Origin: Rhizobiales bacterium 62-47
GTDB taxonomy: Bacteria > Pseudomonadota > Alphaproteobacteria > Rhizobiales > Xanthobacteraceae
Direction: 5' to 3'
NCBI GenBank assembly: GCA_001899255.1
Contig: MKVX01000020.1
Coordinates: 62,001 to 126,000 of the forward strand
DNA: 64,000 nt
Shown here: positions 26,128 to 63,399 of the stretch, piece after piece
Numbering within the stretch: the stretch's first letter is position 1
How the letters are laid out: every line of letters starts with the position of its first letter
Notes under the pieces: model-generated
Told to the model about the DNA's origin: nothing
The model's database searches: none
What the model saw: the letters and a program-made list of their open reading frames with translations, nothing else
Program-made: the position numbers and the translations under genes

Positions 26128-26477
26128 AAGCGGATCTCCTGAAGCATGCTCGCATTCGACGCAGGAAGGCGACCGATGACTCTAGGCTCGATCGAATAGA
26201 CACCATCTCATGATAATGAGAAGTTTAAAGATGCGCTGTACCATATGGTGCAAATCTGATCTGGATCAAACTTCCTTGTTCCGATCATCCTATTTTTAGG
26301 TTGTAGAGTTGGACGGATCAGCCGTTTCGATTGGATTTGCGAACAGATCGCATCAAGTCTCATGACACCGAAGGTTCAGGGACTTTGCAAGAATTTTCCG
26401 TCTCGCCCTAGCTGATCAAAGTCGCTTGCCGTTGGCATTGTCGCTCTTCATCTGGCCGCGATTGCGAGGAGGTTGTG
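26128..26477. other. 350-base intergenic region between divergent small genes
   Basis: No gene seen. It contains a one-mismatch FixK box at 26256-26269 and AT-rich tracts suitable for two divergent promoters. Nothing else is recognised. Confidence 0.5.
26256..26269. promoter_or_regulatory. FixK/FNR box, one mismatch
   Basis: CTGATCTGGATCAA differs from TTGA-N6-TCAA at the first base. It lies 208 bases before the plus-strand gene at 26478 and 128 before the minus-strand gene starting at 26127, so assignment is uncertain. Confidence 0.4.
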
Positions 26478-26717
26478 ATGAATAGTTATCGGGTCTCCTT
26501 CTACAAGGATCGGTTTAATTCAGAAGGTCATAGCTTCAAATGCCTGCAGCATCAGATCGTGGTCCAGTCGGATGGGCCGTCCCAGGCATTGGTCCTCGCC
26601 GAGCAGCTAATCGGACATGCACCTCTCGACATCGATCGCGTTGAAGTGATGCATTTGACGCGCGGGCATCGCGAGCTCAGGCATCCGGAGATTGAGCCGC
26701 TCACTCTTTGTACGTAG
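26478..26717 (+). CDS. Small hypothetical protein
   Basis: A 79-residue protein of unrecognised family. It starts at ATG 26478, preceded by a full AGGAGG at 26467-26472, which strongly supports expression. The product looks like a small alpha/beta domain (SYRVSFYKDR, HQIVVQSDGPSQALVLAEQL) and resembles small stress-associated proteins common in Bradyrhizobium-type genomes. There is one internal cysteine and no signal peptide. It stands alone between two minus-strand genes. Confidence 0.65.
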   Translation: MNSYRVSFYKDRFNSEGHSFKCLQHQIVVQSDGPSQALVLAEQLIGHAPLDIDRVEVMHLTRGHRELRHPEIEPLTLCT

Positions 26718-26974
26718 CGCTCATACCCTAACGAGCACACTCGGCATAAAGTGCCGCCTCGGGTTTTGCACTACGCGGAAAAGACCGTCGTTCGCTGCAA
26801 GACCATCGTTGACACAACGAGTTCAGCCTCGCTGCGCAAATCCAAAGCGAATTCACGTCATCGATGGGCGAATTGCAAATGACGAGGCGGCCTCCCGACA
26901 GCAACTACTCGGTGATGGCAACGGAAGGGACCGCGGAAAAACTGCACATCATTTCCCGCGGGATCGGAGGAGCA

Positions 26975-27430
26975 TCAGATTGACGCGTCCTTGACAAGAT
27001 GCATTTCGATTTCGCTGACCGGGTGCTTGGTCAAATCCTTGCCTATCTCGGCAAGGACGCAGGCCTTCACATCCGGATGAAAGGCATTCCGCAAATCTGC
27101 CAATGTCCTCGGCGGAGCGACCACAATGAGAGCCTTTGCTTTGCTCGTCCGGACCAGCTGCTCCATCGCAGCCGCGACCGTACGCGCAAACCTGTGTTCT
27201 TCGATATCGTGCCAGTTGGTCGGCTCAACGGCACTCTTTCGACCGGGTAGCGCGGCCTCGCTTATCCGCCCTGGACGATCACCCCCTTGCTCGTGAGTCA
27301 GCGGGTTGACGTCTTCGAAAACTTTCTCGGTCTTCAAATTTGGCGACATGGCGTCGCCGGCATTTCGCAGAAACAACGCCTTTCGGCCGTCGCCGACGAA
27401 TACCAGCGCATTGTGAGGAATCTTGAACAT
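26975..27430 (-). CDS. Host attachment protein family (baeRF-like)
   Basis: A 151-residue protein matching the family annotated as host attachment protein, a bacterial relative of the release-factor eRF1 middle domain. Visible features are NALVFVGDGRKALFLRN at the N-terminus, the central polar segment ending in HDIEEHRFARTVAAAMEQL, and ALIVVAPPRTLADLRNAF. GAGGAG lies nine bases before ATG 27430. The attachment phenotype comes from an Agrobacterium relative and may not be the true role; members often sit in stress clusters, as here next to the methyltransferase-esterase fusion. Confidence 0.75.
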   Translation of the reverse strand: MFKIPHNALVFVGDGRKALFLRNAGDAMSPNLKTEKVFEDVNPLTHEQGGDRPGRISEAALPGRKSAVEPTNWHDIEEHRFARTVAAAMEQLVRTSKAKALIVVAPPRTLADLRNAFHPDVKACVLAEIGKDLTKHPVSEIEMHLVKDASI

Positions 27431-27484
27431 ATTGAGTTGCTCCTCGGAATAATTGAATTCTCTTCAGCATGCCGGGGCACCGGC

Positions 27485-29485
27485 TCACACACCAAACGGA
27501 TAGGTATCCGGAAGACCCTTGATGATTGTCGTCTCCAGCGGAGTGACCGCTCGAGTATTATCGAACCAGATATATTCATCGAACTGTTGCGGAAGACTCG
27601 CCTGGAAGTAGTGACTGGCGCGTTCGGTTTCCGGCCGATAAATGACACCGATCGCCCGTTCAAGGCGCTCCTTGCCCAAGCCGGCAGGCCCGCACAGATC
27701 GTCACGGCCGCGCATGCCGAGCAGGAAGCGCGCCAGACCGGTTGTGTGACAGATGTGTTCGTAACTGTTCACAAGGGCTGGACGAACTGTTTTCACCTCC
27801 ATTGGTCCATCCCAATCAGAGGCCGCAGCGACTGTTCCGCTGTGGGTTCCGAATCCGACCAGGTAGGCTTGCGCACCGAGTTCGTTGCGGCAAAGCTGAC
27901 CAAGATTGTATTCACCCCGCGCGGCCATCTCGGTCGCCCCGGCGTTGCCAACGTGCGAGTTGTGCGCCCATACGATAGCCTTGCTATCCGGGCCGTGAAA
28001 CGCGAGAAGGTTCTTCAGCGTTTCGAACATATGCTGGTCCCGCAGATTCCACGATGCACGCGAGCCGTAGTACATGATGCGATAGTAGCGTTCGGCATTT
28101 GCGATCAGGCGCGCATTCTGTTCGGCATCGAGGAACCGTTCGCCATCGTGCTCCGCGTACGCCCGGCGCTTTGCCAGCAAATCTGTGAGCGCACGAACCA
28201 CGTCGGCTTCGCACTTCGGATAGGATCCGGTCAGGGCCGCGTGCCCGTAGGTTGCCGGATCTTTCTGCCACGGGGTCAAACAGCCATAACGCTCTCGCGC
28301 AACCCGTGCCGATTCCGGATCGACCTCGTCAAGATAGTTCAAGACCGATCGAATCGAATCATAGAGGCTGTAGATATCCAGGCCGTGGAATGCCACACGA
28401 TCATGGCGTTCGACCGTACCGTTATGCTTGCGAAGCCAACTCACGAAATCACGCACCTCGGCGTTTCGCCACATCCAGGTCGGAAACCGGGCGAACGCGG
28501 TCCACTCGGACGGCGGATACTGGAAGTGTCGCACATAGTGATCGACCCGCGCGGCGTCCGGCCAGTCGGCCTCGATGGCCACGAAGCGAAAACCCTTCGC
28601 GATGATAAGATCGCGAGTGATGCGCGCGCGCATTTTGTAGAATTCAGAAGTGCCGTGAGTTGCCTCCCCTAACAGGACGATCCGTGCTGAACCGATGCGC
28701 TCGATCAGCGGGGCAATATCCGCGTCCTCAATCGAGAGAAACGATTCCGCTGCATCCGCCAGATTACGAACCAGAATTTCCTCATTCGAATAGACAGGAT
28801 GCTGCACGCCGCGGACTCGCGTCCGGCTACCTCCAGCAGATGTCGCCCATCCCTCTTCTCCGATCAACGGAACGAAGCGAACGTCGGCGATATCTTCGCT
28901 GCGATACTCGTTTGCCGAAACCCGCGTGACACGCACCAATTCCTGACTGCGCTGATCCGCCCCGACCGGGATCACCAGCCGGCCCCCAATCTTCAATTGC
29001 TGCTTGAGGGCTTCCGGAACCTGCGGTCCACCGGCTGCAACAACGATCGCGTCATAGGGAGCGTACTCCGGCCACCCCTTCGTGCCGTCACCGTGCAGCA
29101 CGTGAACGTTATCGTAGCCGAGTTCGGTAAGAAGGACTGCAGCCTTCTCCGCGAGCGGACCGAGCCGTTCGACCGTGTAGACATCACCCGCGATTTTCGC
29201 CAGCACTGCGGCCGCGTAGCCGGACCCGGCTCCGATCTCCAGAACTCTCTCACCACCCTTGAGCATCAGGGCTTCCGCCATGAAAGCAACGATATAGGGC
29301 TGCGAGATGGTTTGCTCACCGGCAATCGGCAGCGGCGCGTCCTCGTAAGCAAACTCACGAAGATTGTCGGGCAAAAACAGCTCACGCGGCACCTCGCGCA
29401 TGGCGTCAAGGACAAGCTCATCGCGGACACCACGTGCCGCAATATGACGCTCGACCATCTGCTTGCGAAGCGACTTGCAATCCAT
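27485..29485 (-). CDS. Protein-L-isoaspartate methyltransferase fused to erythromycin esterase-like domain
   Basis: A 666-residue two-domain protein. Residues 1-215 are a PCMT repair methyltransferase with TISQPYIVA at 59-67 and the SAM-binding VLEIGAGSGY at 81-90. Residues about 240-660 are an EreA-type hydrolase domain with GEATHG at 273-278 and WAHNSHVGN further on. The Ere superfamily includes macrolide esterases and many members of unknown substrate; the mycobacterial DosR gene Rv2030c also carries this domain. A perfect FixK box (29532-29545) lies 46 bases upstream and is shared with the divergent nitroreductase. The role is probably repair of aged proteins or turnover of damaged compounds in non-growing cells. 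Confidence 0.85.
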   Translation of the reverse strand: MDCKSLRKQMVERHIAARGVRDELVLDAMREVPRELFLPDNLREFAYEDAPLPIAGEQTISQPYIVAFMAEALMLKGGERVLEIGAGSGYAAAVLAKIAGDVYTVERLGPLAEKAAVLLTELGYDNVHVLHGDGTKGWPEYAPYDAIVVAAGGPQVPEALKQQLKIGGRLVIPVGADQRSQELVRVTRVSANEYRSEDIADVRFVPLIGEEGWATSAGGSRTRVRGVQHPVYSNEEILVRNLADAAESFLSIEDADIAPLIERIGSARIVLLGEATHGTSEFYKMRARITRDLIIAKGFRFVAIEADWPDAARVDHYVRHFQYPPSEWTAFARFPTWMWRNAEVRDFVSWLRKHNGTVERHDRVAFHGLDIYSLYDSIRSVLNYLDEVDPESARVARERYGCLTPWQKDPATYGHAALTGSYPKCEADVVRALTDLLAKRRAYAEHDGERFLDAEQNARLIANAERYYRIMYYGSRASWNLRDQHMFETLKNLLAFHGPDSKAIVWAHNSHVGNAGATEMAARGEYNLGQLCRNELGAQAYLVGFGTHSGTVAAASDWDGPMEVKTVRPALVNSYEHICHTTGLARFLLGMRGRDDLCGPAGLGKERLERAIGVIYRPETERASHYFQASLPQQFDEYIWFDNTRAVTPLETTIIKGLPDTYPFGV

Positions 29486-29531: not shown

Positions 29532-29545
29532 TTGATCGATATCAA
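29532..29545. promoter_or_regulatory. FixK/FNR box, exact
   Basis: TTGATCGATATCAA matches TTGA-N6-TCAA and is nearly a full palindrome. It lies between divergent genes, 63 bases before the nitroreductase start and 46 bases before the methyltransferase-esterase start, so it may activate both. Confidence 0.75.
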
Positions 29546-29608: not shown

Positions 29609-30172
29609 ATGGACGTCAGAGAAGCCATCTTCGGTCGACGCGCCGTCCGCGAGTTCACGACGGCGCCAGTCGACGAGTCGGCATTACGCGAACTCGTTGA
29701 TGCCGCAATTCAAGCCCCCAGTGCGGTCAATCAGCAACCTTGGCTATTCACAATCGTTAGGAACAAAGAACTATTGGCCCGCATATCGTCCGAAGCAAAA
29801 TCTCATATGCTGAAAACGTCGCCGGCGGCACTGGCGTCCCACCATTTTCATTTCCTGCCGATTCTGAACGATCCGAAATTTGACATCTTCTATGGTGCCC
29901 CAGTCCTGATCGTCATCTCCGCGCCCGCAGGTCCATGGGCAATCGAGGACTGCTCGCTCGCGGCGGAAAACTTGATGCTCGCCGCACATGCTCGAGGACT
30001 AGGGACCTGTTGGATCGGATTTGCACAGGGCTGGCTCGGAACGCCAGAAGGCAGGACTGCTCTCAAGATTTCTCACTCCGATATGCCGGTGGCCCCCGTC
30101 GTCGTCGGACATCCGAAATCGGCTTCTCCTGCCGTCGCGCGAAAGCCTCCGAGGATCGAGTGGATTTCGTAA
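29609..30172 (+). CDS. Nitroreductase-family flavoprotein
   Basis: FMN-dependent NAD(P)H oxidoreductase, 187 residues. The signature FGRRAVREFTTAPVDESAL and the FMN phosphate-binding APSAVNQQPWLF are at the N-terminus, with ARGLGTCWIGFAQ in the second half. The start at 29609 follows CAGGAAGAG. A longer in-frame reading runs back through the antisense of the neighbouring gene and is rejected. The FixK box 63 bases upstream suggests induction by low oxygen. DosR-regulated nitroreductases (acg, Rv3131) are the functional parallel; the substrate is unknown. Confidence 0.85.
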   Translation: MDVREAIFGRRAVREFTTAPVDESALRELVDAAIQAPSAVNQQPWLFTIVRNKELLARISSEAKSHMLKTSPAALASHHFHFLPILNDPKFDIFYGAPVLIVISAPAGPWAIEDCSLAAENLMLAAHARGLGTCWIGFAQGWLGTPEGRTALKISHSDMPVAPVVVGHPKSASPAVARKPPRIEWIS

Positions 30173-30599: not shown

Positions 30600-30613
30600 T
30601 TGACGTGTATCAA
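30600..30613. promoter_or_regulatory. FixK/FNR box, exact
   Basis: TTGACGTGTATCAA lies 53 bases before the NUDIX start at 30667, ideal for class II activation of the NUDIX-phaC operon. Confidence 0.75.
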
Positions 30614-30666: not shown

Positions 30667-31254
30667 ATGTTGCCTGAGCCGCCTTTATCGCCCGGTCCGC
30701 AACAAAACATACCGGGCCGCCTCTGCGAAAGACTAGGCTACGATAATCTGGATCTACGCATGGCAAGCACGAGTGCTGGAATTCTGATGTATCACGGCAA
30801 CGACGACGGCATCGACGTTGTCCTGGTCCACCCGGGCGGACCATATTGGTCCAAACGCGACTTGGGCGCTTGGTCGATTCCGAAAGGAGAACTAAGCGAC
30901 GGAGAGGATCCGGAGAACGCCGCTCGGCGCGAATTTGCGGAAGAACTCGGCGTTCCGGCGCAAGGTCGACTTTATTCGCTCGGCTGCGTGCGTCAGCGGG
31001 CAGGAAAGGTCGTTCATAGCTACGCATTAGCGGGCGACATCGATGTCCGCACCATCCGCAGCAATGATGTCACTGTCGAATGGCCGCTACGCAGCGGCCG
31101 AGTCATCTCCTTTCCCGAAATCGATCGCGCTGCGTGGTTTTCCATTCCCTGCGCCCGTGAGAAAATTCTCGCCAGTCAACGACCACTACTCGATCGTCTC
31201 GAGACCTTCTGCAAGAAGGCATCTCGCCTGTATCAGCAGGAGGCCGCGAGATGA
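30667..31254 (+). CDS. NUDIX hydrolase
   Basis: Pyrophosphohydrolase of 195 residues. The NUDIX box is complete: GELSDGEDPENAARREF followed by AEELGV. The domain begins near residue 32 (MASTSAGILMYHG), leaving a proline-rich N-terminal extension if ATG 30667 is used; GGAG at 30658-30661 supports that start, and ATG 30760 is the alternative. Its stop overlaps the phaC start as ATGA, so the two are coupled. Family substrates include nucleotides and dinucleotides such as ADP-ribose; which one applies cannot be read here. Confidence 0.85.
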   Translation: MLPEPPLSPGPQQNIPGRLCERLGYDNLDLRMASTSAGILMYHGNDDGIDVVLVHPGGPYWSKRDLGAWSIPKGELSDGEDPENAARREFAEELGVPAQGRLYSLGCVRQRAGKVVHSYALAGDIDVRTIRSNDVTVEWPLRSGRVISFPEIDRAAWFSIPCAREKILASQRPLLDRLETFCKKASRLYQQEAAR

Positions 31255-33008
31255 CGTCAAATCGCGCCTTGGCGAAGTTGTCCGATACCGCAACGAGTCT
31301 CGCCAAGTATCCTAACGACATCATGCGTGAATTCGATCGACGTCGTCGCGGTCGCCTTGGATTGCTTCTCGGCGGACAATCGCCTTGGGCCGCCTTCCAG
31401 GCTTGGGAGGATTGGGCGTTCCACCTGATGCTCTCTAGTGGCAAGCAACTGGAGCTCTACGAATTGGCCACTGAAACGGCTTTCTCCCTCAGCAACGCGG
31501 CGTTGACCCGAACCCCCAGCGACATCGGATCGGGGTGCAATGATCGCCGCTTCCGCGATCCGAGCTGGAAGATTCCACCCTTCAATTTGCTCGCCCAAGC
31601 TCAACTTGCCGCGGAAGCATATTGGCATGCCGCCACGCGCGACATTCCCGGTATGGGGCGCCACCACGCAAAGCGCGTGGATTTCCTCGGCAGCCTCATG
31701 TTGAACGCGTTCGCTCCAGTTAACTTTGCCTGGAGCAACCCGTTAGTTCTGCAAGCCGCAAGTCGAACAGGCGGCGCAAACTTCGCCGCCGGGCTGTCGC
31801 TGCTCGCGGAGGATCTTGTCCGTCTCGCGAGTGGTGCGAAATTGAAAGGGCTGGACGAGTTCAAAATCGGCCAGAACATCGCCCTGACCCCGGGCAAAGT
31901 CGTATTTCGCAACGAGCTGATGGAGTTGATCCAGTATGCACCAACGACCTCGCAGGTCCACGAGGAGCCGCTGCTGATCGTCCCGGCATGGATCATGAAA
32001 TACTATATTCTCGATCTCAGCCCGGAGAACTCCCTGGTTCGCTATCTCGTCAGCCAGGGCTTTACCGTATTCATGGTATCCTGGAAGAATCCCGGCGTTG
32101 AGTTGAAAGACATCTCCTTCGATGACTATCGCAGCGAAGGTGTGATGACAGCGATCGACACCATCAACCAGATCGTTCCCGGAAAAAAGCTGCACGCTGT
32201 AGGATATTGTCTGGGCGGCACGATTCTGGCGATCGCCGCGGCGGCGATGGATCGCGATCATGACGACAGACTCGCCAGTCTCAGCCTGCTCGCCGCTCAG
32301 ACCGATTTTACCGAAGCCGGCGAATTAATGCTGTTCATCGACGAAAGCCAGCTCGCACTCCTCGACGACATCATGCATGTTCAGGGCTTTCTCGATACCA
32401 AACAAATGGCGGGTGCTTTCTACATTCTGCGCGCCAATGAGATGATCTTTTCCCAGTTCGTCGACCGATACCTTCTGGGCACCCCTCGTGTTCCAACCGA
32501 CCTCGATGCTTGGCTTGCCGACCCCACTCGCATGCCGGCGCGAATGCACAGCGAGTATCTCCGCCAGCTTTTCCTGAACAACAGTTTTATCCACGGCAAC
32601 TATCTCGTCGACGGACGCGCCGTTGCAATGAAGGATATCAAGACATCCATTTTCGCACTGGGCGCCGAGCGGGATCACATCGCACCGTGGCGCTCGGTCT
32701 ATAACCTCGAACTCTACAGTTCTGCAGATACTGAATTTGTGCTGACCGGCGGCGGACATAATAGCTCCGTGGTCAGCCCGCCCGCGAAGCCGGGGACTTA
32801 CTATCGCGTGAACACTTGCGGGCCCAACGGAAAATATGTCGACCCCGATACGTGGCTGGCCTCGGCTATCCAGAGAGAGGGATCGTGGTGGCCAGAATGG
32901 GTGCGCTGGCTTGATACGCAATCTTCGCCTGCAAGAGTAACACCGCCACTTTCGACCCGCGAGACGACATATGGTCCAGCGCCGGGATCGTATGTCTTCG
33001 AGACCTGA
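31251..33008 (+). CDS. phaC: Poly-beta-hydroxyalkanoate synthase (PhaC-like)
   Basis: Polymerises (R)-3-hydroxyacyl-CoA into storage polyester. In 585 residues the N-terminal PhaC domain is followed by an alpha/beta-hydrolase fold. The lipase-box cysteine is Cys320 in GYCLGG; the other triad residues are seen in LGAERDHIAPW (Asp) and TGGGHNSS (His). Length fits class I. It is translationally coupled to the NUDIX gene and lies behind a FixK box, suggesting polymer synthesis as an electron and carbon sink when oxygen falls. No phasin or phaAB genes are adjacent, so it may be an additional paralogue. Confidence 0.85.
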   Translation: MTSNRALAKLSDTATSLAKYPNDIMREFDRRRRGRLGLLLGGQSPWAAFQAWEDWAFHLMLSSGKQLELYELATETAFSLSNAALTRTPSDIGSGCNDRRFRDPSWKIPPFNLLAQAQLAAEAYWHAATRDIPGMGRHHAKRVDFLGSLMLNAFAPVNFAWSNPLVLQAASRTGGANFAAGLSLLAEDLVRLASGAKLKGLDEFKIGQNIALTPGKVVFRNELMELIQYAPTTSQVHEEPLLIVPAWIMKYYILDLSPENSLVRYLVSQGFTVFMVSWKNPGVELKDISFDDYRSEGVMTAIDTINQIVPGKKLHAVGYCLGGTILAIAAAAMDRDHDDRLASLSLLAAQTDFTEAGELMLFIDESQLALLDDIMHVQGFLDTKQMAGAFYILRANEMIFSQFVDRYLLGTPRVPTDLDAWLADPTRMPARMHSEYLRQLFLNNSFIHGNYLVDGRAVAMKDIKTSIFALGAERDHIAPWRSVYNLELYSSADTEFVLTGGGHNSSVVSPPAKPGTYYRVNTCGPNGKYVDPDTWLASAIQREGSWWPEWVRWLDTQSSPARVTPPLSTRETTYGPAPGSYVFET

Positions 33009-34428: not shown

Positions 34429-34529
34429 GTAATCCTTTGCCGAATCGATCACAGGCCAAATTGCGCGGCAGTGAAATTGCCAATCGGATGATTACCCAAT
34501 GTGACGCAACTGCCTCATCGTTCTTTGCA

Positions 34530-38259: not shown

Positions 38260-38273
38260 TTGACGCATATCAA
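38260..38273. promoter_or_regulatory. FixK/FNR box, exact (Usp copy 1)
   Basis: TTGACGCATATCAA lies 57 bases before the minus-strand Usp start at 38203. A second box for the divergent cytochrome gene follows 30 bases on, so each promoter has its own site. Confidence 0.75.
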
Positions 38274-38302
38274 AACAACCACTAGCTTCTGAGGTTGAGA
38301 CT

Positions 38303-38316
38303 TTGATCTGAATCAA
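38303..38316. promoter_or_regulatory. FixK/FNR box, exact (cytochrome c)
   Basis: TTGATCTGAATCAA lies 59 bases before the cytochrome ATG at 38375. A -10-like TTAAGA at 38338-38343 sits at the position expected for a start site 41.5 bases from the box centre. Confidence 0.78.
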
Positions 38317-41734: not shown

Positions 41735-41737
41735 TTC

Positions 41738-48255: not shown

Positions 48256-48269
48256 TTGATCGAAGTCAA
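48256..48269. promoter_or_regulatory. FixK/FNR box, exact (hsp20 / adh)
   Basis: TTGATCGAAGTCAA lies 68 bases before hsp20 on the minus strand and 89 before the alcohol dehydrogenase on the plus strand. The hsp20 distance fits class II activation best; the dehydrogenase operon may share it. Confidence 0.75.
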
Positions 48270-53996: not shown

Positions 53997-54644
53997 ATGA
54001 CGGACGCTCAGCTTCGACAAGATATCATTGATGAATTCGAGTTCGATCCGACGTTCGATGGCGAACATATCGGCGTCGCCGTCGACAAGAATGTCGTCAG
54101 CCTGACCGGGCACGTTACGAGCTACGCGCAGAAGGTGGCTGCGATCGCTGCCGCGCGCCGCGTCAAGGGCGTGCACGCCATCGCGGAGAATATTGAAGTC
54201 CGCTATCCGTTCCAAGCCAAGCTTGCGGACGACCAGATCGCCAAACGCGCGATGGACATTCTCAAATGGGACGTTCTCATTCCCGGGACGATCGACGTGC
54301 TTGTACAGGATGGTTGGGTCACCCTGAGCGGAACCGTCAATTGGTACTACGAAAAGACGGCCGCGGAAGACGACGTCCGCAAACTCTCCGGGGTGCAGGG
54401 CGTCACCAACAACATCAATATCAAGCCCCGCGTTGAAGCGTCGAACATCAAGGCCAAGATCGAACAGGCACTCAAACGCCACGCTGAAGTGGAAGCCAAC
54501 GCGATCCGCATCTCAGTTCAGAATGGCAACAAGGTCATCCTCGATGGCAAAGTCGACAATTGGGATGAGCGGCGGGCTGTCGAAAACGCGGCATGGTCTG
54601 CGCCGGGCGTGGCTTTCGTCGAAGATCATCTGACGATTCGTTGA
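53997..54644 (+). CDS. Triple BON-domain protein
   Basis: A 215-residue protein made of three BON domains with little else, at about 1-70 (GVAVDKNVVSLTGHVTSYAQK), 78-145 (DVLVQDGWVTLSGTVNWYYEK) and 150-215 (ISVQNGNKVILDGKVDNWDE). Each shows the conserved V.L.G.V glycine pattern. There is no signal sequence, unlike the periplasmic BON protein OsmY, so it should be cytosolic. Such proteins accompany Usp and CBS proteins in stress islands; their ligands are not known. It converges with a 50-residue gene. Confidence 0.87.
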   Translation: MTDAQLRQDIIDEFEFDPTFDGEHIGVAVDKNVVSLTGHVTSYAQKVAAIAAARRVKGVHAIAENIEVRYPFQAKLADDQIAKRAMDILKWDVLIPGTIDVLVQDGWVTLSGTVNWYYEKTAAEDDVRKLSGVQGVTNNINIKPRVEASNIKAKIEQALKRHAEVEANAIRISVQNGNKVILDGKVDNWDERRAVENAAWSAPGVAFVEDHLTIR

Positions 54645-55051: not shown

Positions 55052-56587
55052 GTGACCAGTAACAATATGTTGTCCGTGACAAGTCTACTCCGAGACGACG
55101 ATCTGCAGCGGGGACTAGACGACTCCGGGATTGGCATGTGGGATCTCGATCTCGAGACCCGGGCACTGTTCTGGTCAAAAGCGACGCGCAAACTTTTTGG
55201 CGTGTCAGAACATGACGCCGTCAGTTACGAGCTTTTCCTGTCGCTGCTCCTGCCGGAAGATCGCGCCCGAACGGAATCGGCGATCCAGCGCTCGATCGCG
55301 ACCGGACAGAAGATCGATATTCAGTGCCGGATCCGACAGCGATCGGAAGGGAGCCACTGGGTTAGAGCGCGCGGGGGCCTCGTAACGGACAAGGACGGAG
55401 TGCCGCGCCGCCTGATCGGCGTAGTGCTCGACATCCATGATCAGAAGCGTCTCGAAGAGGCGCTACGCGCGCGTGAAGAGCACCTTCGATTGATCCTCGA
55501 GACGATCCCCGATGCCATGATCGTCATTGATGATCGCGGCATCGTGGAGCACTTCAGTTCGGCGGCCGAGCGCCTGTTCGGTTATTCTGAACCCGAAGCC
55601 ATCGGACAGAACGTCAGCATCTTGATGCCTGAACCGGATCGCAGCCGGCATGACGGCTATCTGGCCCGTTATCAATCCACCGGCGAACGCCATGTCATCG
55701 GCATTGGCCGTATCGTGACCGGGAAACGCCGGGACGGGGCGACTTTTCCGATGCATCTCTCCGTCGGAGAAACGCTTTCCGGCGGAAAGCGTCATTTCAC
55801 CGGCTTTGTACGTGACCTCACTGAGCATCAGGAAACACAGGCAAAGCTTCACGAATTGCAGTCCGAACTGATTCACATATCGCGCTTGAGCGCGATGGGC
55901 GAAATGGCTTCGGCTCTGGCACATGAATTGAACCAGCCGCTTGCGGCTATCAGCAACTACATGAAAGGGTCGCGTCGCCTTCTCGCGGCAAGCGCCAACC
56001 CGGACATGTCGAAAATCGAAACGGCACTGGACCGTGCGGCCGATCAAGCCATCCGAGCCGGTCAGATCATTCGGCGGTTGCGCGATTTTGTCACGCGGCG
56101 GGAATCCGAAAAGCGTATCGAAAGCCTGGCGAAGCTGATGGAAGAAGCCGGCGCACTGGGTCTCACCGGCGCACGCGAACAGAACGTCGTTCTGCGGCTG
56201 GAGCTGGATCCCGAATGCGACCGCATCCTCGTCGATCGCGTGCAAATTCAGCAAGTGCTGGTCAATCTGTTTCGAAACGCCTTGGAAGCAATGGCAACCT
56301 CAACTAAACGAGAGCTAACAGTTTCGAGCACAAATGCTGCAGACGATATGGTCGAGGTATCGATCTCGGATACCGGCCACGGCTTCAGCGAGGCGACGCT
56401 CGCAAATCTGTTCGAGACTTTCTTCACGACCAAAGAAACCGGCATGGGTGTCGGACTTCCGATCAGTCGATCGATCGTGGAAGCCCACGGCGGCCGGATG
56501 TGGGCTGAAAAAAACACGTCCGGCGGCGCCACTTTCCGAATGACCCTGCCTGCCGCGCCGCCCGAGGATTTATCCGATGTCGCTTAA
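55052..56587 (+). CDS. fixL: Oxygen-sensor histidine kinase FixL
   Basis: Haem-PAS histidine kinase, 511 residues. A first PAS domain spans about 20-135. The haem-binding PAS (about 140-258) has the proximal ligand His200 in [11 protein letters not shown] and Arg220 in GIGRIVTGK, the residue that controls O2 binding. The kinase core has His291 in [13 protein letters not shown] and the N, G1 and G2 boxes ([29 protein letters not shown]). All three residue numbers match those I recall for Bradyrhizobium FixL. Without O2 it phosphorylates FixJ. The start is GTG 55052; ATG 55067 is possible. No membrane helices, so it is cytosolic. Confidence 0.93.
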
Positions 56588-57194
56588 GAGATACGTCTAC
56601 GTCATCGATGATGATACCGCGATGCGGGACTCCCTCGCATTTCTGCTCAGCTCGGCAGGCTTTGACGTTGTCGTTTTCAAATCGGCTGCGGAGTTTCTCC
56701 TTGCCGGGACCGACCTCGACTTCGGATGCGTGCTATCCGATGTGCGCATGCCCGGCATTGACGGAATGGATTTGCTTCGACGCCTCAAAGCCGATGCCTC
56801 GCCCTTGCCCGTCATCATCATGACTGGACACGGGGACATCCCCCTTGCGGTCGAGGCGATAAAGCTGGGCGCACTCGATTTTATCGAAAAGCCGTTTGAA
56901 GATGAGCGGTTGATCGAGACCATCGAAGCCGCATTCCGCCAGTGCCAAGATCCCTTGAAGAACGACGCGACTGCAATCGACATTGCATCCAGGGTGGCAA
57001 GCCTCAGTCAACGCGAACGCCAAGTCCTGGACGGTCTCGTCGCCGGGCTATCCAACAAACAGATCGCTCGCGAGTACAATATCAGCCCCCGGACCATCGA
57101 GGTCTACCGGGCGAACGTCATGACTAAAATGCAAGCGCATAATCTGTCAGAATTGATTCGGATGGCGCTGCGTGCCGGCATTTTGAACGATTGA
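56577..57194 (+). CDS. fixJ: Response regulator FixJ
   Basis: A 205-residue regulator, start overlapping fixL by 11 bases. The receiver holds the acid pocket (VIDDD), phospho-acceptor Asp55 in [11 protein letters not shown], Thr in MTGHGD and Lys in EKPFED. A LuxR-type helix-turn-helix follows at about 140-200 ([36 protein letters not shown]). Once phosphorylated by FixL it should activate fixK, encoded 615 bases downstream. Its stop codon is itself part of the FixK box for the next gene. Confidence 0.93.
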
Positions 57195-57260: not shown

Positions 57261-57641
57261 ATGACTGACCCGAGAATTCCAAAGCAAACCGTCTGCGTCC
57301 TCGACGACAACTTGGACGTGCTCCAATCTTTGCAATTTCTTCTAGAATGCCACGGCTTTCTGGTTCGCGCATTCAGTGCCGCGGTCGCGCTGCTAGTTTC
57401 CATCAATCCGGACGACGTCGATTGCCTGGTGATCGACTACAAGATGCCCCATATGGACGGTCTCGACGTCGCCATTCGTTTGCGTCAACGCAACGTCTCG
57501 GCGCCAATCATTCTCGTGACTGGCTATGATGACGAGCAAATGACGGAAAAGGCTACCGCTGCGGGCATAAATCATGTTTTATTCAAGCCGCATCTGGAAG
57601 ATAGCCTCGTGAGGCGCATTCGAGATGTGATCGCCCGATAA
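57261..57641 (+). CDS. Single-domain response regulator (RrpA-like)
   Basis: A 126-residue stand-alone receiver. Acidic pocket LDDN, phospho-acceptor Asp59 in VIDYKMPHMDG, Thr in LVTGYDDE and Lys in LFKPHLED are present; there is no output domain. Its place between fixJ and fixK matches the small receiver gene (orf138/rrpA) in the Bradyrhizobium fixLJ-fixK2 region, as I recall it. With its FixK box it probably compounds a feedback loop, for instance by drawing phosphate from FixL, though no such function is proved by the sequence. Confidence 0.85.
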   Translation: MTDPRIPKQTVCVLDDNLDVLQSLQFLLECHGFLVRAFSAAVALLVSINPDDVDCLVIDYKMPHMDGLDVAIRLRQRNVSAPIILVTGYDDEQMTEKATAAGINHVLFKPHLEDSLVRRIRDVIAR

Positions 57642-57721
57642 GAATGATCAAGGCAGCCAAGGCCAAGGTAATTGCTCAGTATCCGCCAGTTGGTTCATCC
57701 CGTCACCTCCGGGACTCTACC

Positions 57722-57737
57722 TAGGGCACGCCCCCTA
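57722..57737. promoter_or_regulatory. Inverted repeat TAGGG-N6-CCCTA upstream of fixK
   Basis: A short palindrome with 5-bp arms lies 73-88 bases before the fixK ATG. It is where a phospho-FixJ site would be expected. The match to a FixJ consensus is not something I can verify, so it stands only as a candidate. Confidence 0.35.
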
Positions 57738-57809
57738 AGATAATCGACGCAATATCTACAGTTAACAAAGCGCCTTACAAAGCCGTCACCCCCACCACGG
57801 AGACGGCGC

Positions 57810-58496
57810 ATGTTCACGCAGTCAGTCGGCACCTACAAAACTCCTCAAAACCGTAAACCTCCGATTGAAACCGGAGACAAATTTGGGCTCATTGTCGGTC
57901 GTGCCAATCTCGTTGCGACCGAATTCACCTACAATCGCGAGGAGGAAATCTACGGCGAAGACGAACCTGCGGAATACGTCTACCAGGTTCTGAGCGGCGC
58001 CGTTCGCACCTACAAGTTGCTATCGGATGGCCGGCGCCAGATCGGCGCATTCCACTTGCCGGGAGACGTCTTCGGCCTCGAAATTGGCCCGAACCACCGG
58101 TTGACCGCAGAAGCCATTCTCGACACGAGTGTCCGTCTTATAAAGCGCCACAGCCTGGAGCAGGCCGCGACAACCGATGTCGATGTCGCCCGCAAGCTGT
58201 GGAGCATGACGGCTAGCGATCTTCAGCATGCCGAAAATCACATGCTGTTGCTTGGCCGCAAGACCGCCATGGAGCGAGTCGCGGCCTTCCTGCTGGAAAT
58301 GGACCGGCGCCTCTCCGCAGCAGCCATGATGGCGTTGCCCATGTGTCGGCGCGATATCGGAGACTATCTCGGGCTGACGCTGGAAACGGTCTCGCGGGCG
58401 CTCTCCGAGCTTCATGATCGCGGCATCCTCGAACTGTCGGGAGCCCGTCAGATCATCCTTCGCAACCGCCAGCATTTACGCAGCATGAATGCCTGA
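57810..58496 (+). CDS. fixK: Crp/Fnr-type regulator FixK (FixK2-like)
   Basis: A 228-residue CRP-family activator without the N-terminal cysteine cluster of Fnr, so it does not sense O2 itself. The cyclic-nucleotide-like roll spans about 25-125 (VYQVLSGAVRTYKLLSDGRR), then a dimer helix and a helix-turn-helix (MCRRDIGDYLGLTLETVSRA). Cys179 beside the DNA-binding helix corresponds to the redox-sensitive cysteine of Bradyrhizobium FixK2. The recognition helix LTLETVSR fits TTGA-N6-TCAA sites, found here 14 times exactly. It should be the output regulator of the island. I saw no FixK box on its own promoter. Confidence 0.92.
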   Translation: MFTQSVGTYKTPQNRKPPIETGDKFGLIVGRANLVATEFTYNREEEIYGEDEPAEYVYQVLSGAVRTYKLLSDGRRQIGAFHLPGDVFGLEIGPNHRLTAEAILDTSVRLIKRHSLEQAATTDVDVARKLWSMTASDLQHAENHMLLLGRKTAMERVAAFLLEMDRRLSAAAMMALPMCRRDIGDYLGLTLETVSRALSELHDRGILELSGARQIILRNRQHLRSMNA

Positions 58497-58626: not shown

Positions 58627-59304
58627 TCAGTGCGGCAACTCGTCCCGCACTTTCAAATGATCCGAAATACGCTCAATTCCCGTAACGTTCTCGATCAAGG
58701 CTTTCAGCGCGTTACGCTGATTCCGATCGACAATCACGCCCCACATCTGAACTTCATCGTTGGTCACGAGAACGTCGACGATGGCACCTGCCGTCCAGCT
58801 TTGCTTGCGGATTGCAGCAAGAATGTCGTCGCGAACACCTCGTCCGGACCCTGTGCTCTGATCGAATCGGCGCTCAACGGCTGAAAGCAGTTCGGCCTTC
58901 GAGATCATGCCGACAACTGCTCCGTTCGACACCACCGGAATTTGCGCAACGTGGCGACCTTCCATCAAGGCGATCGCCTCGGTTAGATCCGCATCGTGCG
59001 CCACGCAGACCGGATCCCGTGTCATAATCTCGTCGACGCGGCGGCCATAAGCACGCGCAAAGGCCATCGCGCTCTCGCCGGCTCCGAAAATAGCGTCGAA
59101 CCATGGGCGATCTCTTGGCGCTGTCTCGAGCTCGATGCGGCGCAGGAAATCGCCTTCCGACACGATCCCGACGAGCACACCGGAATGATCCACGACAGGC
59201 AGCCCCCGACGACCAGTTTCCATCAAAAGCCGAACCGCATCAATCACACGGCAATCCGGCGCGACACTCACCGCCGGAGACCTCATCACATCTGAAACCT
59301 TCAT
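58627..59304 (-). CDS. CBS-pair plus BON-domain protein 2
   Basis: A 225-residue paralogue of the protein at 53035. CBS motifs are VMRSPAVSVAPDCRVIDAVR..GIVSEGDFLRRIE and IMTRDPVCVAHDADLTEAI..GMISKAELLSAVE; the BON domain follows (VDVLVTNDEVQMWGVIVDRN). It ends nearly opposite fixK, converging with it. An exact FixK box lies 53 bases upstream. Two paralogues under the same control suggest distinct ligands or hetero-oligomers. Confidence 0.87.
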   Translation of the reverse strand: MKVSDVMRSPAVSVAPDCRVIDAVRLLMETGRRGLPVVDHSGVLVGIVSEGDFLRRIELETAPRDRPWFDAIFGAGESAMAFARAYGRRVDEIMTRDPVCVAHDADLTEAIALMEGRHVAQIPVVSNGAVVGMISKAELLSAVERRFDQSTGSGRGVRDDILAAIRKQSWTAGAIVDVLVTNDEVQMWGVIVDRNQRNALKALIENVTGIERISDHLKVRDELPH

Positions 59305-59758: not shown

Positions 59759-60172
59759 TCATTGGCAACGATGCATCAGGCCGTCGTCGAGTTTCACCAA
59801 AGTGCCAGGCCGACAGACAAAGCCGTTTGCCGCCGCGTAGTCTTGCACGGGATAACCATACGATGCGTACGGACCTCCATAGTAATAACCTGCCCTGCCA
59901 TAATAGGGCGCCCCAGCGACTACACCGGCCGTCGCGATCGCTGCAGCCGTACCAACCGCCGCAGCTCCAGCAACGCCAGTACCGTACACAGCTCGCCGCG
60001 TTTGCCGGCGTGCAACACCCGCAACACTCACGGGTGTCAGCGGCCGCCCGACCCTTGCCTGCGCGCCTTCAACTGACATCGATAGGCCGCCTTGCGGAGA
60101 CCAACTGAACGTGAGCAGGGTCATACAAGTGAAAGCAGAAGCTGCAATCGCAATCTTCTTAATATTCTTCAT
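59759..60172 (-). CDS. Exported Gly/Ala/Tyr-rich hypothetical protein
   Basis: A 137-residue protein with a Lys-rich signal peptide (MKNIKKIAIAASAFTCMTLL). The mature part has a hydrophobic Ala/Gly segment (GVAGAAAVGTAAAIATAGVVAG) followed by a Tyr/Gly-rich stretch (YYGRAGYYYGGPYASYGYP) and a C-terminal pair of cysteines (FVCRPGT, HRC). It resembles abundant small envelope proteins of Bradyrhizobium-type bacteria with no known role. GGAGAAGG precedes ATG 60172. A FixK box lies 65 bases upstream. Confidence 0.7.
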   Translation of the reverse strand: MKNIKKIAIAASAFTCMTLLTFSWSPQGGLSMSVEGAQARVGRPLTPVSVAGVARRQTRRAVYGTGVAGAAAVGTAAAIATAGVVAGAPYYGRAGYYYGGPYASYGYPVQDYAAANGFVCRPGTLVKLDDGLMHRCQ

Positions 60173-60237
60173 GGACCTTCTCCGTTGTGCATTGAACATC
60201 CACGTCACACTTTACCTGCACTCCCAAGTTATCGCGC

Positions 60238-60378: not shown

Positions 60379-60813
60379 TCACTGCAGCAGAATTCTGATC
60401 CTACTGAGATTTGCAGCGAACTCCATCCCCGCTCTTGGCCCGCGCAGTTTGATCACGACGCCGTTTTCGTTTCTCAAGTGGGTGGTCCCCGCGCCACCCA
60501 CCAAGGCACCACCACCGCCGATTGAGCGATATGTTCCGGCGAAATCGCTCAACTTGTGAATTCCAGTGACCCAGCCTTCGAGACGACCGACCGATGCGCC
60601 AGCGGTCAATCCGACACTGACACCGACAACTCGGAATGGATAGTCGCGACCGCGATAGCTGAGGACGCCATGTCCCACGCCGCCACCCGCCACCAAGCCC
60701 GCCTTCACGATTTTGATCTGGAGATGACCCGGCACTTGGGCAAGTGACGGCGCCGTCGGAACGGCAAACACGAACAGCATCACCATGACCCAACGAGCCG
60801 CACAAGATTGCAT
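60379..60813 (-). CDS. Exported glycine-rich hypothetical protein
   Basis: A 144-residue protein. Signal peptide from MQSCAARWVMVMLFVFAV to ..SLAQ. The mature part is beta-prone and glycine-rich (GLVAGGGVGHGVLSYRG, SIGGGGALVGGAGTTHL), like small lipid-interacting or barrel-forming envelope proteins; I do not recognise a family. ATG 60813 has GGAAGG seven bases upstream. Longer in-frame readings upstream lack a signal sequence and are rejected. The nearest FixK box is 183 bases away and more likely serves the divergent acetyltransferase. Confidence 0.6.
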   Translation of the reverse strand: MQSCAARWVMVMLFVFAVPTAPSLAQVPGHLQIKIVKAGLVAGGGVGHGVLSYRGRDYPFRVVGVSVGLTAGASVGRLEGWVTGIHKLSDFAGTYRSIGGGGALVGGAGTTHLRNENGVVIKLRGPRAGMEFAANLSRIRILLQ

Positions 60814-60995
60814 CGCTCTGCCTTCCGCATTCGGGGATCTGCGTTGCAACCGGTGCCGGCCCGCAATCAGACCGATATCCATCGGCCCTCGCACTCGAAT
60901 GATGGATCGTGACCGGTGGATCGCGCCTCCGGCAGCTCGACTCGATACGAGAGCAACGATGCGCAAAACGTTCGCAGGCCCTTCGCCCGTCAGCC

Positions 60996-61009: not shown

Positions 61010-61068
61010 GCGCCACCGAGACGTCACATGGCTTCGATTGATATCGATTCCCGGTGAGAGCACGCCAC

Positions 61069-61590
61069 ATGTCAGACCTGGCCAATTACTCCGCGCACGA
61101 AGTCCTCAAGAATGGCTGTTCAATAGAAATTCGCGCATTGCAGCCGGAAGATGAACCCGACATGCTTACGGCGGTCGGAAAGACCAGTCCCCAGTCGTTA
61201 CGGCGCCGATTTTTCGCGCCCAAGAATAGCTTTTCGCAGAAGGAGCGCTCCTTCTTCATGAAAATCGACTTCAGCAATCACATTGCGCTCGTCGCGCTTC
61301 ATGAGGAGGGTAGCGAGCATCTGATCGTGTGCGGTGGACGGTATATCGTCACCTCGCCCGGAACAGCCGAATTGGCATTAATTGTCATCGATCAATGGCA
61401 GGGACGTGGTATCGGTTCGCTTTTGCTGCGCCACCTCATTGGGATCGCGCAAAATCGCGGCGTAACGAAACTGATCGCTGAGGTCTTACCGGAAAACGCC
61501 GCAATGCTCACAGTGTTTCGGAAATTTGGCTTTCGAACCGTACCCGGCTCGGATCCGCAAACGATCCATCTGTCTCTCAAGTTCACGTGA
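61069..61590 (+). CDS. GNAT-family N-acetyltransferase
   Basis: A 173-residue acetyltransferase. Motif A is present as ALIVIDQWQGRGIGSLLLRHL (acetyl-CoA binding R/Q-x-x-G-x-G), and LPENAAMLTVFRKFGF is motif B. Its N-terminal phrase SIEIRALQPEDEPDML and RRRFFAPKNSFSQKERSFF resemble the GNAT domain of the large synthetase fusion at 44302-46995, so it may be a free-standing protein acetyltransferase of the Pat type. ATG 61069 is preceded by GAGAG; GTG 61054 is possible. FixK box 59 bases upstream. Confidence 0.82.
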   Translation: MSDLANYSAHEVLKNGCSIEIRALQPEDEPDMLTAVGKTSPQSLRRRFFAPKNSFSQKERSFFMKIDFSNHIALVALHEEGSEHLIVCGGRYIVTSPGTAELALIVIDQWQGRGIGSLLLRHLIGIAQNRGVTKLIAEVLPENAAMLTVFRKFGFRTVPGSDPQTIHLSLKFT

Positions 61591-62136: not shown

Positions 62137-62454
62137 TCAATGCCCCGCCTCCAGTTGATCCATGGCGACATGAAAAAACTCATTCATTTTTTGACCGACC
62201 TGCTCGGCTGAAATACCTTTTTGGAAAAGATCGTCTGCAACTTTGCGCAACGTGTCGTCATCGCTTTGATTTCCGATATCTGCCGTAACAAGTTCGTTTG
62301 CGTAGGAAATGGCTGCCTGGCCTCTCAGGTCTAACAGGTCGGCAGCCCAACTACCCAACAGTTTGTTGCGTCTCGCGATGGCTTTGAACTTCAATTCTTC
62401 GTCGTGGATGAATTTCGCTTCGAAGCCCTTCTCACGCTTGTCGAACGTTGTCAT
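62137..62454 (-). CDS. ATP synthase inhibitor subunit zeta-like protein (DUF1476)
   Basis: A 105-residue protein with the alphaproteobacterial zeta-subunit pattern: the N-terminal inhibitory segment MTTFDKREKGFEAKFIHDEE, then KFKAIARRNKLLGSWAADLL. In Paracoccus this protein blocks the hydrolytic direction of F1-ATPase by inserting its N-terminus. The C-terminal half (MNEFFHVAMDQLEAGH) looks more divergent than the N-terminal half. It lies next to an epsilon-like gene but far from any other F1Fo genes in the window. A main copy is expected elsewhere, so this may be a condition-specific paralogue. Confidence 0.83.
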   Translation of the reverse strand: MTTFDKREKGFEAKFIHDEELKFKAIARRNKLLGSWAADLLDLRGQAAISYANELVTADIGNQSDDDTLRKVADDLFQKGISAEQVGQKMNEFFHVAMDQLEAGH

Positions 62455-62517: not shown

Positions 62518-62931
62518 TCAGAAAGCGGTCGTGGGGGCCAAGGTCGTGTGAATCGATTTGTAGTGATCGAGCTGCGCAATCGCGCGATCAAGTCCATCAC
62601 CCTTCTGCTCCGCCAATCCTTCCTTGATTTCGTCGATCTGAGTCTTGAGGCCGGCGAGATCAAAGTCTTCGGCCGAGATAGCGGAATCTGCCAATATCGT
62701 AAGGTCGTCCAGCGAGAACTCAGCCACGCCACCGAGCACGACAAACTTTTCGCGGCCGCTCCCCGCGATGACGGTCACGATACCCGGGCGAAGCATCGCA
62801 ACGATCGGTGCATGGCCGGCAAGTACGCCAAGATCGCCCTCGGCACTCGGCGGCGCTCCACTCCGGCACAAGAACATTCTGCTCCATGAACCGGATTCAG
62901 TGTCTACAGGCTTGCTCACAGCCGTACCCAA
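62518..62931 (-). CDS. ATP synthase epsilon-like protein with abnormal N-terminus
   Basis: Residues from SAEGDLGVLAGHAPIVAMLR onward match the epsilon subunit, including VVLGGVAEFSLDDLTILAD and a C-terminal helical pair. The N-terminal beta strands are not canonical: between the SG that normally opens the second strand and PSAEGD about five residues are missing, and the region before it does not resemble FELVSPEK. The start is TTG 62931, or ATG 62877 with GGAG just upstream. This is either a decaying copy or a deliberately shortened regulatory version. It is followed by the zeta-like gene. Confidence 0.7.
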   Translation of the reverse strand: MGTAVSKPVDTESGSWSRMFLCRSGAPPSAEGDLGVLAGHAPIVAMLRPGIVTVIAGSGREKFVVLGGVAEFSLDDLTILADSAISAEDFDLAGLKTQIDEIKEGLAEQKGDGLDRAIAQLDHYKSIHTTLAPTTAF

Positions 62932-62936
62932 TCTGA

Positions 62937-63290
62937 TTACTTTCGACGACGTCCTTCCGTCGGCACTCCGAGGTCACGTTGCCAGATCGTGCCGTTGTCG
63001 AATTGAATCAACATGCCATCTGGAGAAAACACGGCGCCTTCGTTCCAGCTATCGATCCAGATCCTGGTTCTCGGCGAAAACCAATCCGGCCAAGCCCGCG
63101 CTGATTCACCTGCCTCGTTCAGAAGATTCAGGTCGGCGCCGTTCTGCGTGATATAGGCAGAGTTTCCGACCAATCCCAAACGACACGTTTGGATACACCT
63201 GTATGCGCCGGTGAGATTGACTGACTGCGCCGAGGCTTGGGTTACAGCAAGGATTGCAAAGGCTCCGATAATCGACAGTAGTCTTCTCAT
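62937..63290 (-). CDS. Exported hypothetical protein
   Basis: A 117-residue protein, signal peptide MRRLLSIIGAFAILAVTQAS ending ..AQ. The mature part begins VNLTGAYRCIQTCRLGLVG and has two close cysteines that may form a disulfide, and a Trp-rich middle (WPDWFSPRTRIWIDSW). Family not recognised; similar in size and layout to the protein at 61642. The next gene begins within six bases of its stop, so it probably heads the epsilon-zeta transcript. An exact FixK box lies 95 bases upstream. Confidence 0.65.
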   Translation of the reverse strand: MRRLLSIIGAFAILAVTQASAQSVNLTGAYRCIQTCRLGLVGNSAYITQNGADLNLLNEAGESARAWPDWFSPRTRIWIDSWNEGAVFSPDGMLIQFDNGTIWQRDLGVPTEGRRRK

Positions 63291-63385
63291 TGGAGATCGC
63301 TCCGCTGTTCAGGTGAACCAACCGTGGCGCGAGACGGCTGCCACAATCCGACGCGGAAGAAATATTCTATCAGCGGCGCAATCTC

Positions 63386-63399
63386 TTGATCTGGGTCAA
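63386..63399. promoter_or_regulatory. FixK/FNR box, exact (epsilon-zeta operon)
   Basis: TTGATCTGGGTCAA lies 95 bases before the gene starting at 63290, somewhat further than the usual 45-70, so a longer leader is implied. A short plus-strand frame starts here but has no ribosome site. Confidence 0.7.

Follow-up and report, generated by a model that had tools for sequence, protein, structure and literature searches.

The window analysed here is a 64-kb stretch of Rhizobiales bacterium 62-47, corresponding to bases 62001-126000 of contig C20 (genome size 4.92 Mb). At positions 26256-63399 it contains a cluster of genes around fixL, fixJ and fixK, below called the FixL-FixK island, which covers about 37 kb or 0.8% of the genome and comprises, next to the oxygen sensor, some thirty genes of stress, storage and maintenance, most of them with a candidate FixK-type box. 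Protein domains were assigned by Pfam and NCBIfam scans of open reading frames (ORFs) and by whole-genome family searches; longer alternative starts were also scanned for the NUDIX hydrolase (30667), the P-type ATPase (37275), the second universal stress protein, Usp 2 (38765), and the CoA ligase-GNAT protein (47037). Judged from the sequence, both the clustering of these genes and their link to FixK look real. The closest FixL proteins (identity over the best segments) come from two metagenome-assembled genome (MAG) records (83-84%), five Nitrobacter records (75-82%) and the three nearest Bradyrhizobium (67-68%), and thus the organism belongs near Nitrobacter.

The regulatory genes lie together on the plus strand. 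FixL (55067-56587) is a haem-PAS histidine kinase, whose PAS region matches Bradyrhizobium japonicum FixL with E 5e-64 in the comparison with Protein Data Bank (PDB) sequences. It consists of PAS and the kinase core, and no GAF domain is detected by Pfam. The histidine at the axial position is retained, as is the arginine that is an alanine in the 1y28 chain. FixJ (56577-57194) has a receiver and a GerE domain (Pfam), and together with FixL (Pfam, PDB) it forms the pair of haem-sensor kinase and regulator that an earlier note on this DNA had described. It is followed by a single-domain receiver (57261-57641; Pfam), which adjoins fixJ in every one of the nine relatives that keep the block and has a candidate FixK box of its own at -63 with one mismatch; this is possibly a feedback or phosphate-sink protein. 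FixK (57810-58496) is a FixK2-type member of the CRP/FNR family (PDB 4i2o, E 4e-107). It has a cysteine at the position of a serine in the 4i2o chain, which we take to be the Cys-to-Ser form of FixK2, and no Fe-S cysteine cluster was seen in it by eye. The redox cysteine of FixK is discussed in PMC2908626 (here and below, published sources are cited for the passages used). An alignment of 16 fixK upstream regions revealed a conserved block (57704-57758, plus strand) containing TAAG and a CSNAATWT-like word. Both elements are quoted for FixJ sites in PMC4999443; the spacing of the block is unlike the published FixJ positions. It is a putative FixJ site.

The genome contains 17 HTH_Crp_2 matches, 12 of them above the cut-off. 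These 12 loci comprise FixK, a FixK-like paralogue on contig C13 (60% identical to FixK, with a box in front), four proteins 22-26% identical to FixK, and six loci without a usable ORF. Anr and FNR are Fe-S sensing regulators, and one of this kind may read the island boxes instead of FixK. The Anr/FNR stress regulons have the same type of box and include Usp targets (PMC2908626, PMC9104464). However, no Fe-S FNR was recognised among the six readable CRP/FNR paralogues, the six further loci having no usable ORF.

Candidate FixK boxes were defined as sites that lie up to 300 bp upstream and differ from the consensus TTGATN4ATCAA at no more than one position, and transcription units were inferred from strand and spacing. 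Of 27 such units, 22 have a box, or 19 of 24 if three small doubtful ORFs are set aside. The same procedure with 19 permuted palindromes yielded 0-2 of the 27 units, and none of 18 genes of the left flank had a box. In the island there are 16 sites with at most one mismatch, whereas 20 Markov sequences gave an expectation of 1.4; for the first 23 kb of the window the figures are one site and 0.5 expected. The strict form TTGAYN4RTCAA occurs 60 times in the genome, compared with one occurrence of the reversed control pattern. Twelve of these 60 boxes fall into the island, where 0.45 would be expected from its length (binomial 3e-14). Boxes are found also in related genomes, upstream of 64 of 125 orthologues, compared with 0-6 of 125 for the control patterns.

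The boxes span the island from edge to edge. At its left edge lies CTGATCTGGATCAA (26256-26269), with one mismatch. It is followed by TTGATCGATATCAA (29532-29545), a box without mismatches between the genes of the methyltransferase-esterase fusion and the nitroreductase, and by TTGACGTGTATCAA (30600-30613) upstream of NUDIX-phaC. Two boxes, TTGACGCATATCAA and TTGATCTGAATCAA (38260-38316), are situated in the divergent promoter region between Usp 1 and the cytochrome c gene. Further boxes are TTGATGCAAATCAA (43754-43767), between mlaE and the gene starting at 43873, TTGATCGAAGTCAA (48256-48269), between hsp20 and the alcohol dehydrogenase gene, and TTGATCTGGGTCAA (63386-63399), upstream of the run formed by ORF 62937-63290 and the epsilon and zeta genes. 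In the relatives, the mlaE upstream region contains a box without mismatches in G043, G028, G005 and G050, and only a box with two mismatches in G040 and G019.

Conservation of the cluster was assessed in related genomes. FixL matches at 1e-100 were found in 41 of 61 genomes of the family, including the one considered here, and the surroundings of fixL were examined in 11 of the other 40 genomes, of which nine have a FixL at least 64% identical and two have the methyltransferase-esterase fusion. One further genome (G007, FixL identity 66%) was left out, as its fixL lies at a contig end. Homologues of non-regulatory island proteins were accepted at identity of at least 45% within 30 kb of fixL; contig ends limit the span in G040 and G046 (3.5 and 10 kb on one side). 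Nine of the eleven genomes, from eight genera including the window's own, retain 6-20 island homologues. The remaining two (G008 and G038, FixL 58-61% identical) have four and two homologues, respectively, within only 40 and 20 kb examined. Nine control stretches of the genome considered here, 144 kb in all, yielded only the FixK paralogue. Among the nine relatives, CBS-BON proteins are encoded near fixL in all, CBS1, PhaC, cytochrome c and a Usp in eight each, and MlaEFD, the CoA ligase-GNAT protein, the APH-AAA protein and the product of the gene at 43873 in seven each. Of five named Nitrobacter loci, four share much of the block, and that of N. winogradskyi keeps few genes. Thus the physical cluster around fixLJ-fixK proposed in the earlier note is borne out by box enrichment and by the relatives, and the random adjacency that it had named beforehand as the contrary outcome was not found for the core. 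More distant FixL proteins occur at Rhizobium loci L072-L077, together with boxes and varying sets of BON, Hsp20, alcohol dehydrogenase, Usp, baeRF and P-type ATPase homologues (25-58% identical); perhaps this is an independent gathering of the same gene classes.

At the left end of the island, a protein of baeRF family 12/Host_attach (26975-27430, minus strand; Pfam) is encoded by the second gene of an inferred operon headed by the fusion gene (27485-29485, minus strand; Pfam, PDB). By name, it resembles the B. diazoefficiens host attachment protein bll5315, which is induced in microoxia and listed as a FixK2 target (PMC6515984). In the fusion, a domain of the erythromycin-esterase type stands behind protein-L-isoaspartate methyltransferase (PCMT), an isoaspartate repair enzyme; the esterase domain had been predicted, and is present in this fused form. 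Matches to it occur in 10 of the 61 genomes (own included, two partial), and seven relatives have the entire fusion (56-86% identical). No publication linking erythromycin esterase, isoaspartate and universal stress was found among open-licence papers. The predicted nitroreductase is likewise present (29609-30172, plus strand): a single-domain protein of 187 amino acids (PF00881 at C20:91630-92028, PDB), whose start was set by comparison with relatives. Its gene was absent from the ORFs first scanned and was detected by the whole-genome family search.

The next genes on the plus strand encode a NUDIX hydrolase (30760-31254; Pfam) and a PhaC-like polyhydroxyalkanoate synthase (31251-33008; Pfam, under the NCBIfam class I cut-off). 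They are followed by an inferred minus-strand operon in which the gene of Usp 1 (37373-38203; Pfam, PDB) precedes those of a P-type ATPase (34615-37212) and of HemN, the oxygen-independent coproporphyrinogen III oxidase (33073-34452; TIGR00538, 426 bits, cut-off 325). The ATPase was correctly recognised in the earlier note, but its comparison with CtpF is valid at the superfamily level only, since the protein scores 765 bits against TIGR01524, the Mg2+-translocating family, whose cut-off is 610.75. Divergently from Usp 1, a small cytochrome c (38375-38701; Pfam) and Usp 2 (38846-39682; Pfam, PDB) are encoded on the plus strand; the best box upstream of Usp 2 has two mismatches.

The middle part starts with a lipid transporter operon of the MlaE-MlaF-MlaD ABC type (40628-43656, minus strand; Pfam) and a conserved hypothetical gene of the core cluster (43873-44274, plus strand), whose product has no Pfam match and has homologues in the fixL regions of seven of the nine relatives. 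Three minus-strand genes follow: an ADP-forming acyl-CoA ligase fused to a GNAT acetyltransferase domain (44302-46995; Pfam, NCBIfam), the bare CBS pair CBS1 (47178-47708; Pfam on the longer ORF 47178-47876, PDB), and hsp20 (about 47728-48022; whole-genome family search and frame reading). The predicted Hsp20 is present, but its two halves are in different frames, so that the gene is either broken or affected by a sequence error. On the plus strand there are a zinc alcohol dehydrogenase family protein (48359-49342; TIGR02822), the APH-AAA kinase-like protein (49355-50938) and a CHAD-domain protein (50935-51843; Pfam). The APH-AAA assignment, made already in the earlier note, agrees with Pfam in that AAA_33 scores above its cut-off, with APH at 20.3 bits below its cut-off of 23.2. 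Upstream of fixL, also on the plus strand, lie the genes of Usp 3 (52051-52881; Pfam, PDB; box centred at -70, one mismatch), a CBS-BON protein (53035-53763; Pfam; box at -71) and a triple-BON protein (53997-54644; Pfam; box at -65, no mismatch). The three Usps had been described as tandem; in fact, two are divergent neighbours and the third is 12 kb away. The three CBS proteins are confirmed by Pfam as one bare CBS pair and two proteins with CBS plus BON. The island accounts for three of the nine Usp and six of the 30 CBS domain matches obtained in whole-genome family searches.

To the right of fixK, the minus strand encodes the second CBS-BON protein (58627-59304; Pfam; box at -60, no mismatch) and two small hypothetical proteins (59759-60208 and 60379-60966, each with a box at -36), and the plus strand a GNAT acetyltransferase (61054-61590; Pfam; box at -51). 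Near the right edge, on the minus strand, are second copies of the F1-ATPase inhibitor zeta (62137-62454; PF07345) and of ATP-synthase epsilon (62518-62931), the other copies being at C18:253841 and C2:370328. The N-terminal part of the epsilon copy is unmatched, its first 27 residues not aligning, and the gene is possibly broken. It lies less than 16 kb from hsp20 with its two frames; decay or assembly error may account for both. Ten of the 61 genomes, this one included, have a second match to zeta, and an adjoining second epsilon occurs only here and in G043, where no FixK box was found near the pair. A second zeta copy was observed also in another genus (G012, L144:8860-9183), about 5-8 kb from ORFs resembling acetate kinase and enoyl reductase by eye, in a stretch that holds one FixK-type box. 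Classes that the earlier note had not listed are HemN, PhaC, MlaEFD, cytochrome c, alcohol dehydrogenase, CHAD, CoA ligase-GNAT, the single receiver and the zeta/epsilon pair.

Several such gene sets have been described in other bacteria. The predicted alphaproteobacterial FixK regulon, best defined in Bradyrhizobium, Nitrobacter and Rhodopseudomonas, contains genes for FixL, FixJ, ABC proteins, Hsp20, phosphoketolase, CBS proteins, cytochrome c, a kinase and alcohol dehydrogenase (PMC2908626). In B. diazoefficiens at 0.5% O2, MCE, ABC, MlaE, GNAT, Usp, PhaC2, CBS and host-attachment proteins are induced, and FixK2 targets include the Usps blr2761 and bll6069, PhaC2, the CBS protein blr6074 and a host-attachment protein (PMC6515984). 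Published FixK regulons thus already list such classes, and the statement that the island goes well beyond the usual role of FixK was overstated (PMC2908626, PMC6515984). Compared by description, the likeness to the FixLJ-FixK2 system of B. diazoefficiens extends over the FixL, receiver and FixK families and the induced protein classes. However, the genes of B. diazoefficiens, a nitrogen fixer, form separate clusters bll2757-blr2762 and bll6059-blr6074 (limits from gene numbers), whereas the island is a single block and its genome has no real nifH match: the sole PF00142 match is partial, covering 36 residues, in a search that did not extend to nifD and nifK. Nitrogen fixation is therefore an unlikely output of the island.

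The lxa locus of Burkholderia cenocepacia consists of about 50 clustered genes, including those for six Usps and for heat shock, BON, cytochrome c and flavin/nitro-reduction proteins, and is upregulated at low oxygen (PMC6127331, PMC9733578). It is linked to anoxic persistence in strains J2315 and K56-2 and has been likened to DosR in print (PMC6127331, PMC9733578, PMC9104464). By gene class, the island similarly clusters Usp, the broken Hsp20, BON, cytochrome c and nitroreductase; the difference is that B. cenocepacia is a betaproteobacterium, in which FixLJ (BCAL2210/2211) and the FixK homologue BCAM0049 are encoded outside lxa. In Streptomyces coelicolor, the DosRS-like pair OsdR/OsdK lies within a cluster of Usp, nitroreductase and alcohol dehydrogenase genes (PMC5069765). 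However, this is an actinobacterial relative of DosR with a box other than that of the island. Burkholderia lxa and the Bradyrhizobiaceae FixK regulon are closer precedents than DosR, and the central idea of the earlier note is already precedented. The island is a further, box-dense example of a known oxygen-starvation gene set.

The earlier note had seen in the island a mirror of the mycobacterial DosR regulon. Shared classes are Usp, alpha-crystallin, CBS, nitroreductase, esterase domain, P-type ATPase and APH-AAA, the domain make-up of single DosR genes, including CtpF, the Acg-type nitroreductase and the Rv2030c-type esterase fusion, being presumed here. In both systems a haem kinase is combined with a NarL-type regulator. 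However, DosS and DosT sense through a haem-bearing GAF domain, whereas the island FixL has a PAS haem domain; the ATPase is of the Mg type, the nitroreductase has a single domain of 187 amino acids, and the esterase is fused to PCMT. The DosR regulon has no CRP/FNR tier and its genes are scattered over several loci, whereas the island has a FixK tier and forms one block; its FixJ consists of receiver and GerE, yet the target boxes are of the FixK type. Also at odds with a special relation to DosR is the presence of hemN, phaC and cytochrome c, which are commonplace genes of low-oxygen life. In the passage cited, the DosR gene list of PMC4082495 gives few domains and does not include Rv2004c. 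Against PDB sequences only, Rv2626c ranks seventh of 26 for the bare CBS protein at 47178 (E 3e-10) and 30th of 38 for the CBS-BON protein at 53035 (E 5e-7). For the three Usps, no mycobacterial structure appears among the PDB matches at E of 0.01 or below; the matches are 3loq, MJ0577 and 4wny, which we take to be archaeal-type or other Usps.

Homology of the island with the mycobacterial DosR system, by transfer or descent, would agree with the broad classes, the kinase-regulator arrangement and the match of the bare CBS protein to Rv2626c. Given the different sensor, ATPase, nitroreductase and esterase fusion, the low rank of Rv2626c for CBS-BON and the Usp matches, it is scarcely credible. 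Homology by descent was rejected on the ATPase, the nitroreductase, the esterase fusion and the PDB comparisons, the Rv2626c match of the bare CBS protein weighing against this rejection. As far as sequence comparison goes, the island resembles DosR in gene types and may work somewhat alike, but descent is not supported. Of the proposed mirror, the gene classes and the haem kinase with a NarL-type regulator stand, and the special relation does not.

We consider it likely that the genes of the island serve survival at low oxygen, under the control of the FixL-FixJ-FixK cascade encoded within it. Oxygen control is something that we infer from the box sites, the named families and B. diazoefficiens. 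When oxygen leaves the FixL haem, FixL would phosphorylate FixJ, which would switch on fixK, and FixK would bind the TTGATN4ATCAA boxes before about four fifths of the transcription units of the cluster. Usp, CBS, BON and, where intact, Hsp20 proteins would brake and protect energy-starved cells; PCMT would repair aged proteins and HemN would make haem synthesis possible without oxygen. PhaC, alcohol dehydrogenase and nitroreductase may serve storage and disposal of reducing power, MlaEFD envelope maintenance, and the CoA ligase-GNAT protein the tuning of acyl-CoA pools. That the outcome is survival without growth we only infer; with moderate confidence, survival of energy-starved cells is favoured over growth, because the block consists mostly of functions in protection, repair, storage and envelope upkeep.

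One alternative is that this is an ordinary FixK microoxia regulon for growth at low oxygen, with accessory stress proteins and no dormancy programme. The hemN, phaC and cytochrome c genes of the cluster fit low-oxygen growth too, as does the alcohol dehydrogenase gene, and similar classes are induced in microoxic cultures of B. diazoefficiens, some also in bacteroids (PMC6515984). Moreover, the genome encodes three haem-copper oxidases, and on another contig there is a ccoNOQP-like operon (downstream ORFs resembling ccoOQP by eye) with a two-mismatch FixK box at -87. On the other hand, this cbb3-like operon lies outside the cluster, many genes within it encode Usp, CBS, BON, Hsp20, PCMT and MlaEFD proteins, and in Burkholderia a comparable locus, lxa, has been associated with anoxic persistence of the strains that carry it. 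A growth regulon is quite possible, although short of probable.

A number of observations weigh against the survival cluster. Divergent units share boxes, and thus the 22 units rest on 15 boxes. Five units have none: Usp 2, the ORFs at 39764 and 61642, fixLJ and fixK, the last two fitting the notion that fixK is driven by FixJ. Among the relatives, 61 of 125 upstream regions are boxless at this stringency, although operon-internal genes may be among them; for CoA ligase-GNAT, none of ten relatives has a box. The passages cited on B. diazoefficiens describe MCE, ABC, MlaE and GNAT proteins as induced in microoxia without marking them as FixK2 targets (PMC6515984). In eight of nine relatives the fixK gene adjoins the fixJ-receiver pair, but in G019 about 20 kb separate them. 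The examined flank of four Nitrobacter loci (L007-L010) yielded no FixK homologue, and near the second fixL locus of G024 CBS1 is the sole island homologue. Within the island, hsp20 is broken, as the epsilon copy may also be. B. cenocepacia H111 is described as lacking the lxa locus and yet surviving anoxia (PMC9104464), and thus survival does not necessarily depend on a block of this kind.

Linkage to fixL is weak for some genes: among the nine relatives, alcohol dehydrogenase is found near fixL in four, the Mg-type ATPase in three, Hsp20 in two and triple-BON in one. Of the ten genomes with a PCMT-esterase match, three (own, G040, G024) have it no more than 45 kb from fixL, several of the others being drafts with the genes on separate contigs; nitroreductase is linked only here and in G024, and triple-BON only here and in G040. 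The latter patterns could be explained by chance adjacency of unrelated stress genes, and chance may have placed individual genes near either edge (left, 26-31 kb; right, 58-63 kb). For the core, the box enrichment, the fixL neighbourhoods of relatives, from CBS-BON in nine of nine to APH-AAA in seven, and the control stretches almost without homologues led us to reject it; as an account of the whole island, chance is very improbable. Recent acquisition as a genomic island is somewhat easier to imagine, but improbable as well. GC content drops to about 57% over the island, starting from about 22 kb (22000-63400), compared with 61% in other examined DNA of the genome, and an integrase-like ORF (by eye; L001:7016-8383) lies about 5.6 kb to the right. 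However, much of the block is common to other genera at the fixL locus, there is no tRNA in the window, and there is no sign of recent transfer. Beyond the right end of the window, this ORF is followed by genes that by eye look plasmid-like, and the whole may represent an integrated element.

If the island is a survival cluster, it sets a FixLJ-FixK cascade apart from nitrogen fixation, as the regulators lie inside a box-dense stress and maintenance block of a genome without a real nifH, and the question whether FixK is primarily a survival regulator becomes testable through this block. Together with Burkholderia lxa and actinobacterial DosR/OsdR, this would be a further lineage gathering Usp, CBS, Hsp20, nitroreductase and comparable classes under oxygen control, and such gathering in several lineages would speak for convergence under similar demands and against shared ancestry. 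More doubtful is the suggestion that the island is a self-contained non-growth programme of an origin independent of DosR, with sensor, regulator and the majority of effectors in a single block, ancestral at the fixL locus of the Nitrobacter-Bradyrhizobium group and extended here by a FixK-boxed second copy of zeta together with one of epsilon. If so, the extra zeta would stop ATP hydrolysis once oxygen runs out. This idea of an ATPase brake is weakened by the unaligned start of epsilon, by the restriction of paired copies to this genome and G043, and by the boxless pair of G043.

A second group of FixK-type boxes was observed at C13:412001-446477 (L003, L004), with a DUF3141 gene and the FixK-like paralogue. 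The same region contains ORFs resembling phosphate acetyltransferase and acetate kinase by eye, and perhaps it is a fermentation arm of the same FixK regulon.

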